Shown in pieces: positions 11,090 to 15,926 of a stretch of DNA of 64,000 nt; positions within the stretch are counted from its first letter, which is position 1; every line of letters starts with the position of its first letter. The notes beneath the pieces are model-generated. The model was not told the origin of the DNA. It worked only from the letters and a program-made list of their open reading frames with translations, and did not search any database. Position numbers and translations under genes: made by a program. Origin of the DNA: Modestobacter sp. DSM 44400 (GTDB lineage: Bacteria; Actinomycetota; Actinomycetes; Mycobacteriales; Geodermatophilaceae); the NCBI RefSeq assembly GCF_900107175.1, contig NZ_FNOZ01000011.1, positions 47,008 through 111,007 on the forward strand, given 5' to 3'.

Positions 11090-12049
11090 TCAGCGGGGGA
11101 TTCCGAGGAGCTCTGCCACGAAACGGAGCCGCTCCGGGGCGGGGCAGCCGGTCGCATCGAGGATGCGGTTCATCATCTCGAAGTTGGCGCATACGCCGAT
11201 CGCGGCGGCGGCCATCTGCGGACCCGCCGCACGGGACAGGGCGGCGCGGGTCTCCTCGAGTCGCTGACCGGTGACCATGGCGGTCGCCAGGCTGCGCAGC
11301 TCGAGGCCCGCCGGGAGTTCCGGATCGATGCGGTCGTCGACCACCGCTCGGAGGTCGACGGTCGTCCCGGTCGTCTTCTGCACGCTCACCCGGAGCATGT
11401 TGGCATGGGCGAGCAGCTAGTAGAAGCAGTCGTTGAGGAGCGACACGCGCGCGGCCAGCAGCTCCATCTGGGCCCGGGACAGCACCCCCCGGTAGGTGAA
11501 GTCGGCCATCTGCTCGGTGCTGAGGTACAGGACGGCATGCAGCTGGTCGCGCGCGTGCTCCTCGACGGGTACCGCAGAGAGGGCGAAGCGGGCGCCGTCC
11601 TCGGGTGCGGTGGGGACGAACGCCTGCCGCCACCGGACCCGGTTCTCGTGTTCGCCGGTGGGCCGCCCCGGCGTCGGCTCGGGCAAGGGCTCTTCTTGGG
11701 CTCCGATGCCCCGTAGGTAGGAGTCCACCGCGGCGAGCCTGCTGACGACGCCCACGACCTCGACGTACTGCTCGATCGTGACGCCGCGGGCGACCAGGTC
11801 GACCACCCATTCGCGGGTGATGAGATGCGCCGCGGCCGACACGGACTGTGCCGCCTCGATCAGCGGCTCGGGCAGTTCGCTGTGCGCGTCGGCGAACGTC
11901 CGAGCGGTCCGCGCCTCTGCGGCCACCGCGAGCCGCTGCCGCCCGGTCAGCCATGTTCCCGGCGCGGCGAGGCGCTGCCATTCACGGCGCAGCTCCTCCC
12001 CGACGCGGTCGGGCACCGGCAGGACGGCATCCGCCAGTTCGAAGCTCAT
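11090..12049 (-). CDS. AhpD-like alkylhydroperoxidase selenoprotein with in-frame UAG (CxxU)
   Basis: One open frame of 319 sense positions is interrupted only by TAG at 11419-11417 (codon 211). Before it: MSFELADAVLPVPDRVGEEL ... EQMADFTYRGVLSRAQMELL ... NDCFY. After it: LLAHANMLRVSV ... GPQMAAAAIGVCANFEMMNR ... RFVAELLGIPR, then TGA. The context C208-F-Y-[UAG]-L-L-A-H215 is the AhpD redox motif CxxCxxxH with the second Cys replaced by UAG. The Cys relative at 15308-15850 has CSYCQSAH at the same place. A 7-bp stem-loop with loop CGGGT follows 20 bases after the stop. Reading as selenocysteine fits better than termination, which would remove the catalytic half. ATG 12049 follows AGGGGAGAGAC. 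The next gene upstream also has a UAG. Likely role: thiol/selenol peroxidase or disulfide reductase in the cytoplasm. Confidence 0.82.
11381..11399 (-). promoter_or_regulatory. SECIS-like stem-loop of the AhpD-like selenoprotein
   Basis: On the mRNA strand this reads CATGCTC-CGGGT-GAGCGTG: seven pairs (one G-U) closing a five-base loop with GGU. The loop lies at +28 to +32 counting the U of UAG as +1. Bacterial SECIS hairpins sit 16-37 bases after the Sec codon and carry G/GU in the apical loop. An alternative lower pairing CTCGCC/GGTGAG also exists. Confidence 0.6.
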
Positions 12050-12116
12050 GTCTCTCCCCTATCGGTCCGGGCGGATCGAGAGCCGCTCGACCCGGTGGAC
12101 TCCCGTCCGCGCTGGC

Positions 12117-13049
12117 TCAGAGGTCGAGTCGCGTCTCCGGGCCGTCGGCCTGGGTCAGGAGTCCCAACGCGGCCTCCACCACCTGGCGTTGCCGGGCCCG
12201 GTCGCCGGCCGGGCCAATGGTGCGGCCCATCAGGTGCGGGGTGACCAGCACCCGGGGCAGCCGCATCCGTCCGGCGACGTGCGCGAAGGCGCGGATGAAC
12301 ACCGCGACGGTGGGGATTCCTGCCGCCTCGAGGGCGCGCGCGACGAGTCCGACCGACTCGTGGCAAGCCGGCTAGGTGGCGACCAGTAGGCAGGCGTCCA
12401 CGCCGTCGGCGACCAGTCGGTCCGCCCATTCCGGCGCCACCTGGGTACGTAACCGGACCTGGGAGGTGGCCCCGGTGAAGGCGTAGTGAATGTCGGCCAG
12501 CTGCACGCTGCCCTCGGACTCGAGCTCTCGGAGGACGGCGAGCGGGAAGACGGTTCCGGGATCGCGCTGCGCGGTGAGCGCGTCGTAGCCGGGATGACGT
12601 GCGGTCAGAGCACTGTCCGGGGTGTTCTTCGGGATCACCGAGAGGGTGGGCGCGCCGCGCAGGAAGTCCTTGATCAAGCCCAGAGACTCCGCCTGGGTGG
12701 GGCCGTCGGGGCCCATCGGGTCGTCGTCGGCGCGGAACACGCCACCGGCGGAGACCAGGGCGAGGCGCAGATCGGCCAGCGGGGCGGGCAGCGGGGTGAA
12801 CGGCGCGTCGTCGACGACGGGCGTGTCGTCGGCCTGGTAGGCGGCGACCTGGGCGGCGTAGACCGCGTCGCGGACGCCGGTCAGGGCGCCGGTGTCCAGA
12901 GCCTCACCGACCCGAGCCAGCACCTCTGCGACAGTGTCCGCCGCCGCCTCGTCGCCCATCCCGGCGAGGAACTTGAACTGCATGTCGGAGCGGTCGCCGT
13001 AGGAGAAGCTCCTGCGGAACGCCTCGAAGCTCATCGGCTCCTCGCCCAT
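12117..13049 (-). CDS. GrdB-like (glycine/sarcosine/betaine/D-proline reductase B family) selenoprotein with in-frame UAG (UxxC)
   Basis: 310 residues including codon 226, a TAG at 12374-12372. Before it: MSFEAFRRSFSYGDRSDMQF ... HPGYDALTAQRDPGTVFPLA ... DIHYAFTGATSQVRL ... VDACLLVAT. After it: PACHESVGLVARALEAAGIP ... RVLVTPHLMGRTIGP ... LDL, then TGA. In Cys homologues this site reads C-P-x-C-H, so U226-x-x-C229 forms the expected redox pair. A perfect 7-bp stem with loop GGTCG follows 13 bases later, almost where the E. coli fdhF SECIS loop (GGUCU) lies. The start ATG 13049 overlaps the HAD stop (TGATG). The family includes true Stickland reductases and many aerobic proteins of unknown reaction; this one is likely the latter. 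Confidence 0.87.
12343..12361 (-). promoter_or_regulatory. SECIS-like stem-loop of the GrdB-like selenoprotein
   Basis: ACGAGTC-GGTCG-GACTCGT on the mRNA strand: seven perfect pairs, five-base loop GGUCG at +21 to +25 from the UAG. In E. coli fdhF the SelB-recognised GGUCU loop is at +22 to +26 (from memory). The stem can extend past one C-C mismatch (TTGC below). This is the best selenocysteine insertion signal in the window. Confidence 0.72.
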
Positions 13050-13735
13050 CACTGAGCTCCTTCTCCGTCGAGCACGTCGGCGAGCTCGGCGAGGCTGGTC
13101 GCGGTCAGCGCGGGGGCTGTGAAGACGTCGGGGTAGCCGCTGCCCTCGCGGTTGATCCAGGCGGTGGCCATGCCGGCGCGGGCCGCGCCGTCGATGTCCC
13201 ACGGGTGGACGGCGACCAGCAGCATGTCGCCCAGGTCGATGCCGCAGGTGCGGGCGGCGTACTCGTAGGCGGCGCGGGCCGGCTTCCAGGCGCCGGCGTC
13301 CTCCACCGACAGCAGCGCCTCGAACTCCTCACGGATGCCGGCGTCGCCGAACAGCCGCTCGGCGACCTGGGCGGACCCGTTGGAGAGGGTGACCAGCCGG
13401 CGTCCGGAGCGGCGCAGCGCGCGGACGCCGTCGGGCACGTCCGGATGGACGCCCAGATCGCTGAAGCCGCTTATGACGTGGTCGATGGCCGCGTCCAGGC
13501 TGCGGTCGAGGTTCACGTCGTGCAGCACCGTGTGCAGGGCGTCGACGCCCAGCTGGGCGAAGGGCCGCTGGCCGCCGGCGGCGGTGAGCGCGAACCCGTC
13601 GCGCAGCAGGGTGGCGAACCACAGCTTGGCCAGGTGCTCCGGTGCCCCGATGTCGATGAAGCGCTGCGCCATCGGGCTCATGTCGGACAGGGTCTCGTTG
13701 ACGTCGAAGACGATCACGGACGGGGCGGGGCTCAT
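13049..13735 (-). CDS. Haloacid dehalogenase type II / HAD-superfamily hydrolase
   Basis: 228 residues. HAD motif I FDVNETL (nucleophile Asp), motif II TLSNGS, the Lys of motif III in WKPARAAYEYA and motif IV VAVHPWDIDGAA. The cap segment MSPMAQRFIDIGAP ... LWFATLLRDGF is that of L-2-haloacid dehalogenases and related enzymes. The ATG overlaps the stop of the upstream hydrolase by four bases and its own stop overlaps the GrdB-like start, so it is inside a tightly packed leftward operon. True substrate unknown; release of halide or phosphate from a small acid is the family range. Confidence 0.85.
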   Translation of the reverse strand: MSPAPSVIVFDVNETLSDMSPMAQRFIDIGAPEHLAKLWFATLLRDGFALTAAGGQRPFAQLGVDALHTVLHDVNLDRSLDAAIDHVISGFSDLGVHPDVPDGVRALRRSGRRLVTLSNGSAQVAERLFGDAGIREEFEALLSVEDAGAWKPARAAYEYAARTCGIDLGDMLLVAVHPWDIDGAARAGMATAWINREGSGYPDVFTAPALTATSLAELADVLDGEGAQ

Positions 13736-15307: not shown

Positions 15308-15850
15308 TCACAGGCCGGGAGCGGGCGGGAGATCGAGGTCGGTCTCCACCAGGTGGTTGAAGTGGTTGGTGAACAGGTTCAGCGCGATGTGCAGCGACAC
15401 CTCGGTGAGTTCGGTGTCGCTCCAGCCGGCGTCCAGCGCCGCCTGCCACACCTCGTCGGACACGTGTCCCAGGTTCGAGGAGGAGGCGCGGACGAGGGTC
15501 AGCAGCGCGGCGAGCTTGGGGTCGAAGTCGACCCGGCCCTCGCGGATGGCGACGGTCTGCTCCTCGGTGAGCCCGGCGCGCTTGGCGCCGAGGGTGTGCG
15601 CCGACTGGCAGTAGGAGCAGCGGTCGACGTTGCCCACCACGAGCGCGATCGCCTCGCGGGTGGCGGCGCCGAACGTGCCGTAGTCGCCGATGACCTGCTG
15701 CAGCGCGACGTAGCCCGCCAGCACCACCGGCGCATGGGCCATCTCGCCGTGGATGTTGAGCACCTTGCCGAACTGCACCTCCAGCGCCTTCAGCTCGTCG
15801 CGGCTGTTCTCAGGGGCGTCGGCGACGGTGTGCACGGGGATGCGCGGCAT
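15308..15850 (-). CDS. Carboxymuconolactone decarboxylase/AhpD-family protein with CxxC
   Basis: 180 residues; the start ATG 15850 follows GGAGG with five-base spacing, preferred over ATG 15862. It carries the AhpD catalytic motif C-S-Y-C-x3-H (DRCSYCQSAH) and the usual flanking helices AATREAIALVVGN and GLTEEQTVAIREG. These proteins reduce peroxides or peroxidase-bound disulfides using the Cys pair; the carboxymuconolactone decarboxylase name is only the Pfam label. The all-cysteine motif makes it a local comparison for the UAG-containing relative at 11090-12049. It is likely a single-gene transcript ended by the 15267-15302 hairpin. Confidence 0.88.
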   Translation of the reverse strand: MPRIPVHTVADAPENSRDELKALEVQFGKVLNIHGEMAHAPVVLAGYVALQQVIGDYGTFGAATREAIALVVGNVDRCSYCQSAHTLGAKRAGLTEEQTVAIREGRVDFDPKLAALLTLVRASSSNLGHVSDEVWQAALDAGWSDTELTEVSLHIALNLFTNHFNHLVETDLDLPPAPGL

Positions 15851-15926
15851 TCGTTCCTCCATGATCTCGATGGGCTGACCCTGCGGTAACCCGGCGAGAG
15901 CACAGGGGCCTTCCCGGTGCCGATCG

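Follow-up and report, generated by a model that had tools for sequence, protein, structure and literature searches.

In bacteria, selenocysteine (Sec) is inserted at a codon that is followed by a hairpin in the messenger RNA, and it is this hairpin that is read by SelB. The decoding of UAG, instead of UGA, as Sec was reportedly described for Geodermatophilaceae by Mukai in 2016. Excerpts of PMC5330540 (Santesmasses 2017) document a tRNA-Sec with the anticodon CUA in three genomes of this family, UAG in genes for formate dehydrogenase (Fdh) and UGSC (after Mukai 2016), and a UAG-containing AhpC gene in Blastococcus saxobsidens. We have analysed a stretch of 64,000 nucleotides from a member of the family, Modestobacter sp. 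DSM 44400 (hereafter the window), in which two adjacent genes, one AhpD-related and one PrdB-like, are each interrupted by a single in-frame TAG. An earlier note, made from the letters of the window, had proposed that both genes encode selenoproteins and had pointed to a precedent for UAG-encoded Sec in this family, which the excerpts of PMC5330540 show to be real. Our comparisons leave us with little doubt that both are selenoprotein genes, as predicted from sequence, in which UAG is read as Sec by the genome's own tRNA-Sec(CUA).

The excerpts of a 2026 review (PMC13188914) list NF041238, GrdB and PrdB as selenoproteins, describe NF041238 as 'hypothetical protein 1, Sargasso Sea metagenome' with a CxxU motif, and mention UAG as a stop and in the context of engineered Sec insertion. 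Selenoproteins of the AhpD-like and PrdB types from sea water are listed in excerpts of PMC2398784, and the use of UAG by some bacteria is stated in those of PMC8124441. The excerpts of the literature searched described neither an AhpD-related nor a PrdB-like gene with UAG, nor any genome in which tRNA-Sec(CUA) and tRNA-Sec(UCA) occur together, a statement that does not extend to Mukai 2016.

The two UAG-containing genes of the window

The AhpD-related gene, in which the TAG is found in the context LLNDCFY-[TAG]-LLAHANML, scores 238 bits against the NCBIfam model NF041238 ('AhpD_rel_CFYUT', alkylhydroperoxidase-related (seleno)protein) and thereby exceeds the equivalog cut-off of 175. Its codon 211 aligns with the second Cys of the CxxCxxxH motif in the AhpD structure 6k40. 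When the best 80 of 399 relatives from named genomes were aligned, the codon at this site was TGA in 76, TAG in three and TGC in one, which means that a stop codon occupies the site in 79 of these 80 other loci, drawn from several phyla. The three relatives with TAG come from Modestobacter caceresii, Geodermatophilus chilensis and Blastococcus sp. DSM 46786, all of them Geodermatophilaceae. The AhpD-type CxxU product is expected to be a thiol or selenol redox enzyme. Five of the loci (L040, L079, L084, L089 and L093) hold another AhpD-family copy a few kb from the first, and this copy has TGA at the site as well. The window itself holds a third AhpD-domain protein near the pair (15308-15862), which has Cys and no in-frame stop (CSYCQSAH) and matches the model of the YciW-related (seleno)protein weakly, with 23 of 310 bits.

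The second gene, with the context LLVAT-[TAG]-PACHESVG, had been called GrdB-like in the earlier note. Indeed, its protein contains the Pfam domain GRDB (PF07355; 49.4 bits, gathering cut-off 22), and that part of the assignment stands. The best-scoring model is, however, PrdB (TIGR04483), and 'PrdB-like' is therefore the closer name; we do not call it PrdB, because the score of 100.6 bits is under the equivalog cut-off of 300. The protein also stayed below the equivalog cut-offs for GrdB and for UGSC (NF041046; 20.6 bits, cut-off 125), and no solved structure matched it at an E-value of 0.1. In its relatives, the codon aligned to codon 226 is TAG, TGA or a Cys codon. In PrdB and GrdB, the Sec of the UxxC motif serves a reductive cleavage adjacent to a carboxylate. 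The PrdB-type UxxC product of the window is probably a redox enzyme as well, and by analogy it might use its Sec for the same type of cleavage.

The claims of the earlier note on the two frames have held up on closer examination: each has one TAG, at codons 211 and 226, and a TGA at its end, as was confirmed on the minus strand; the TAG of the AhpD-related gene falls on the redox position that had been named; and the homologues carry Sec or Cys codons at both sites. The same applies to the claim that the frames are conserved on both sides of the TAG. In four pairs of AhpD genes, the rates of nonsynonymous (dN) and synonymous (dS) substitution were 0.143-0.203 and 0.606-0.671 after the TAG, as compared to 0.173-0.214 and 0.683-0.805 before it. 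For the PrdB-like gene, dN was 0.110 and 0.191 and dS 0.773 and 0.681 after the TAG in two pairs, in one of which the partner has TGA, and the values before the TAG were similar. The region 3' of the TAG is under purifying selection like the region before it and, since dN is well below dS in both parts, selection indicates that the part downstream of the TAG is translated.

The tRNA-Sec, the hairpins and the alternative explanations

A tRNA-Sec(CUA) and the genes selA, selB and selD, which would be needed if UAG encodes Sec, were all found in the genome (5.0 Mb assembly in 182 contigs, 99.93% complete). A search in which 150 of 1260 first-look candidates were scored gave one tRNA-Sec, located at C78:57174-57265 (L001:1501-1596), with the anticodon CTA and a score of 66.9 bits for Rfam RF01852. 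The four other matches were a tRNA-Leu and three tRNA-Ser, of which one exceeded the family cut-off; a second tRNA-Sec with a UCA anticodon was absent among these five. The genes selA (TIGR00474, 419.7 bits) and selB (TIGR00475, 283.2 bits), both above their cut-offs, and selD (C78:52546-53454, 386.3 bits) each lie within about 5 kb of the tRNA-Sec, in a span of about 10 kb on the same contig. A stretch matching tRNA-Sec and surrounded by selA, selB, selD and formate dehydrogenase genes was also seen on an Arthrobacter plasmid (NZ_CP110115.1, L285) and on a Tsukamurella plasmid (NZ_LR134459.1, L286).

The window genes are not the only candidates for decoding by this tRNA. The genome contains a second PrdB-like gene with one in-frame TAG (C56:2334-2951, L165:1824-3023), and TAG is found at the Sec site of its UGSC gene (C94:24893-24895, L290) and of its FdhA gene (C98:47089-47091, L302), bringing the number of TAG genes of this kind to at least five, the two of the window included. 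None of the 16 matches to AhpC-TSA (PF00578) in the genome has an internal stop.

We then compared the Sec codons with the tRNA-Sec anticodons across 117 genomes, 69 of which belong to the family of the window. The tRNA-Sec could be typed in 64 of these 69 (all except G002, G015, G044, G051 and G068): 57 have CTA, one of which, G036, also has TCA, and 7 have TCA alone and fall in three genera (g6, g8 and g10). The 30 best-scoring tRNA-Sec loci, 24 of them outside the family, all have TCA. AhpD genes were present in 5 of the 117 genomes, and all have TAG. PrdB-like relatives were taken from this set, because a class-wide search (345 genomes, E-value 1e-60) matched only the window's own genome; they were found in 11 genomes, with 6 TAG, 5 TGA and 2 Cys among 13 rows. 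UGSC was found in 32 genomes (54 rows: 30 TAG, 6 TGA and 18 without a stop). FdhA loci were found with TIGR01553, for which the listed rows with an internal stop (n = 13) comprised 10 with TAG, all from the family, and 3 with TGA (G086, G112 and G058); the motif was present in 19 of the 20 loci examined, with 13 TAG and 6 TGA, and the motif-less copy of G058 was left out. TIGR01591, whose listed rows included 5 TGA and no TAG, proved unsuited to the Sec-type Fdh of the family. In all four gene families, the Sec codon matches the anticodon in every genome with a typed tRNA-Sec, and the only genome with both Sec codons, G036, has both tRNAs.

Further evidence comes from the sequence downstream of the codon, where structures resembling a selenocysteine insertion sequence (SECIS) can be recognised. 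As folding energies after the TAG turned out to be unexceptional, the case for these hairpins rests on comparison, and synonymous-codon constraint and covariation were used in place of the weak folding tests on single sequences. For AhpD, all four pairs of the mini hairpin GCUC-NNNNN-GAGC are present in 78 of 81 sequences, and its codons are constrained at the synonymous level: Leu is CTC in 79/81 (0.36 elsewhere), Arg is CGT in 56/74 (0.12) and Ser is AGC in 73/77 (0.28), with G as the third base in 80/81 where 33.4 would be expected. For the PrdB-like hairpin, examined in 9 sequences with TAG as well as TGA, 77.8% of the cells are paired, as compared to at most 51.9% in slid controls; both the covariation score and the paired share are above those of 500/500 shuffles and of all slid versions, and most sequences have a GGUC-type loop. 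In UGSC, where the motif was found in 26 of the 30 loci compared, an 8-pair hairpin is complete in all 18 genes with a stop codon (14 TAG, 4 TGA), whereas 8 Cys genes retain 3-6 of the 8 pairs. Lastly, the loop [A/G]GUCU occurs in all 19 FdhA genes, with TAG and TGA alike, and resembles the SECIS loop of Escherichia coli fdhF. The hairpin has thus been kept while the codon changed, as is expected if SelB reads the hairpin.

Several observations weigh against this interpretation and should be noted. RNAalifold predicted no common structure for the 81 AhpD sequences or a subset of 49, and found the 4-pair hairpin only in a subset of 30; moreover, the sole AhpD member with Cys, L036, retains this hairpin. 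Four pairs of the PrdB-like hairpin are changed on both sides, a number reached by 317 of 500 shuffles, and this structure was derived from one of the sequences compared. Synonymous shuffles were at least as stable as the native sequence in 67/500 cases for the window's AhpD and in 206/500 for its PrdB-like gene, with 39/500 for the second PrdB-like gene and 490/500 for G067b. With respect to the codons, G058, a genome with CTA, has an FdhA row that is listed with TGA; this TGA is not at a Sec site, because that FdhA copy lacks the Sec-bearing segment. The codons of G044 (TGA) and of G002 and G015 (TAG) stand without a typed tRNA, G036 has a TGA selenoprotein candidate besides its CUA tRNA, though with a tRNA-Sec(UCA) of its own, and the compared sequences are related, so that the counts do not represent independent events. 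The FdhA copy of G058 (L303, G058:C12:811500-817000) looks broken.

The most obvious alternative would be that the TAGs are true stops, in which case the genes have decayed or encode short proteins of 210 and 225 residues. Such short forms are indeed present in the public protein sets: when the C-terminal letters were checked against a motif, 105 of 110 AhpD proteins and 117 of the 120 PrdB-like proteins listed (of 301; the window's own included) were seen to end at the residue that precedes the Sec site. In addition, UAG can still end genes in this group, as the full-length selB of G036, a relative with CTA, ends in TAG (one gene). However, cut proteins are what standard gene calling produces at any Sec codon, and true stops are difficult to reconcile with a selection after the TAG that equals the one before it and with a stop codon that recurs at the same AhpD site in nearly all loci of several phyla. 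We consider it very improbable that the TAGs are true stops. Plain readthrough of the TAG was considered as well and rejected. Stop-codon usage from crude calling of open reading frames (35 in the window, 29 ending in TGA and 6 in TAG, one of the latter being the AhpD frame) was not used as evidence, because several of these frames look spurious.

It is even slightly less probable that UAG specifies pyrrolysine or one of the standard amino acids. This idea derives some support from ARAGORN, which labels the CUA tRNA of the genome 'tRNA-Pyl', but the tRNA matches RF01852 over its full length, lies within the sel locus and has a long variable arm, and does not have the short-arm structure of a tRNA-Pyl; furthermore, the aligned sites hold TGA, TAG or Cys and no other residue. 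The label, which ARAGORN also gave to all 17 CTA rows in one set of typed tRNA-Sec loci, is an annotation trap. The least credible possibility, to be dismissed almost entirely, is an error of sequencing or assembly at both codons. It would not account for the same TAG in the AhpD genes of the three named relatives, nor for the TAG at the Sec site in 6 of 13 PrdB-like rows, 30 of 54 UGSC rows and 13 of 19 FdhA loci. Altogether, the tRNA-Sec, the match of codon and anticodon and the SECIS-like hairpins support the view of the earlier note that this genome uses the UAG variant of the Sec code. The features concerned are listed in the following table.

Features of the window (positions refer to the 64,000-nucleotide stretch)
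Feature	Position	Strand	Remarks
AhpD-related gene, predicted selenoprotein, 319 residues with TAG counted	11090..12049	minus	ATG to TGA, single internal TAG
UAG codon 211, predicted Sec of CxxU-xxx-H motif (CFYU-LLA-H)	11417..11419	minus	
SECIS-like mini hairpin GCUC-CGGGU-GAGC, columns 24-36 from U of UAG	11384..11396	minus	AhpD-related gene
PrdB-like (Pfam GRDB) gene, predicted selenoprotein, 310 residues	12117..13049	minus	ATG to TGA, single internal TAG
UAG codon 226, predicted Sec of UxxC motif (U-PA-C-H)	12372..12374	minus	
SECIS-like hairpin, apical loop GGUCG (loop 12350-12354)	12336..12368	minus	PrdB-like gene
Haloacid dehalogenase type II gene, immediately upstream of PrdB-like gene, one-base overlap	13049..13735	minus	TIGR01428, 173.2 bits (cut-off 125.4)

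Probable origin of the UAG codon and a relative with two putative Sec codons

On the model of the known bacterial pathway, SerRS would charge the tRNA-Sec(CUA) with serine, and SelA, with selenophosphate provided by SelD, would convert the product to the Sec-carrying form. SelB would then bring this tRNA to ribosomes at a UAG that is followed by a hairpin, in competition with release factor 1, while a UAG without a hairpin would still terminate translation. As it is the hairpin, rather than the codon, that SelB recognises, an ancestral replacement of the UCA anticodon by CUA, accompanied by changes in the codons, would have shifted selenoprotein genes from UGA to UAG.

A tree of 44 SelD proteins has a branch, with a support of 100/99, that separates the 25 CTA rows from the TCA genera of the family; in this midpoint-rooted tree, G044 and G051 were labelled TCA by genus only, and G097, G106 and G071 have long branches. 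This topology fits one UGA-to-UAG switch inside the Geodermatophilaceae. In a comparison of 26 tRNAs, the 17 with CTA can be told from the 7 of the family with TCA by the anticodon and by the base pair that borders the anticodon loop (C-G instead of T-A). Most simply, the anticodon would have changed once, from UCA to CUA, on the stem lineage of the crown group, and the selenoprotein genes would then have followed. In the SelD tree, G007, although filed under the genus of the window, is placed with genus g4, which might reflect a transferred sel locus.

G036 deserves particular attention in this respect. Its contig C11 carries a tRNA-Sec(CTA) with selA, selB and selD, and its UGSC and FdhA genes have TAG. 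A second, full-length tRNA-Sec with the anticodon TCA is found at C17:1173-1263 (81.8 bits), 0.3 kb from an AhpD-like gene (TIGR01926; 112.3 bits, cut-off 81.8) with TGA in the motif CFY-TGA. Both lie in an island (C17:1-14000, L163) that has a GC content of 0.68, versus 0.75-0.77 in the rest of the contig, and contains at least two transposase genes as judged by Pfam. SelA and SelB had no match on the whole of C17, and no other genome among the 64 typed ones of the family has two tRNA-Secs. We see about an even chance that, after one ancestral switch from UGA to UAG in the crown of the Geodermatophilaceae, G036 re-imported UGA-encoded Sec on a mobile island with a tRNA-Sec(UCA) and a UGA gene, that these borrow SelA, SelB and SelD from the host, and that both Sec codons run in one cell. 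The island may also represent contamination or misassembly. If the re-import is real and active, one SelA/SelB pair would serve two Sec codons in G036, and this genome would allow the service of two Sec codons by SelB to be tested directly. Mukai in 2016 reportedly also described an unusual tRNA-Sec in Aeromonas salmonicida, so that a genome with two Sec codons may have a precedent of another kind.

Neighbouring genes and relation to known systems

The adjacency of AhpD and PrdB-like genes is not general, as no PrdB-like match covering the Sec codon was found in the 80 AhpD loci, most of which extend some 4 kb to either side. The pair may exist in at least one further organism, since the database protein P0033 reads as the end of a PrdB-like protein leading into the start of an AhpD-like one. 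A haloacid dehalogenase type II gene directly precedes the PrdB-like gene of the window, and a gene of this family also stands upstream of the second PrdB-like gene of the genome, at a distance of about 1 kb (TIGR01428, 181.2 bits). In G067, the relative of this second gene has one about 1 kb away, and the Blastococcus AhpD gene has one at 2.6 kb; none was seen beside the other 10 of the 13 PrdB-like rows, for which the flank mostly covered at most 1.5 kb. The presence of a haloacid dehalogenase near both PrdB-like genes gives a faint hint at alpha-substituted acids, such as 2-haloacids, as substrates. Matches to the frame of an alpha/beta-hydrolase, obtained by tblastn, were dropped as composition artefacts.

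The code variant that this genome is predicted to use is rare but already known, and the two window genes are further members of it. The interest of the present findings lies in the extent of the switch, in its apparently single origin and in the lead provided by G036. They point to a clean natural case in which a codon was reassigned for one amino acid through a change in a tRNA anticodon and in the codons of a few genes, with the hairpins being kept; this switch can be placed on one branch, and sister genera that still use UGA are available for comparison. On the practical side, most of the database entries listed for both families stop short of the Sec codon.

When compared to the described UAG-Sec system of the Geodermatophilaceae, the present one agrees in family, in the tRNA-Sec(CUA), in the in-frame UAG with a hairpin downstream, and in the TAG of UGSC and FdhA. 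It differs in that the window adds two families, NF041238 and PF07355, to the UAG selenoproteins Fdh, UGSC and AhpC that are named in the excerpts of PMC5330540. The AhpD-related protein shares the CxxU motif with NF041238, in which it is placed above the cut-off, but is predicted to use UAG where the large majority of its named relatives use UGA. The PrdB-like protein has the GRDB domain and the UxxC motif in common with the PrdB and GrdB selenoproteins, while it remains below the cut-offs for PrdB, GrdB and UGSC and has UAG as its predicted Sec codon. Relative to the standard UGA-Sec system, the components are the same, i.e. tRNA-Sec, SelA, SelB, SelD and SECIS-like hairpins, and the difference resides in the anticodon, CUA instead of UCA, and in the codon, UAG instead of UGA.

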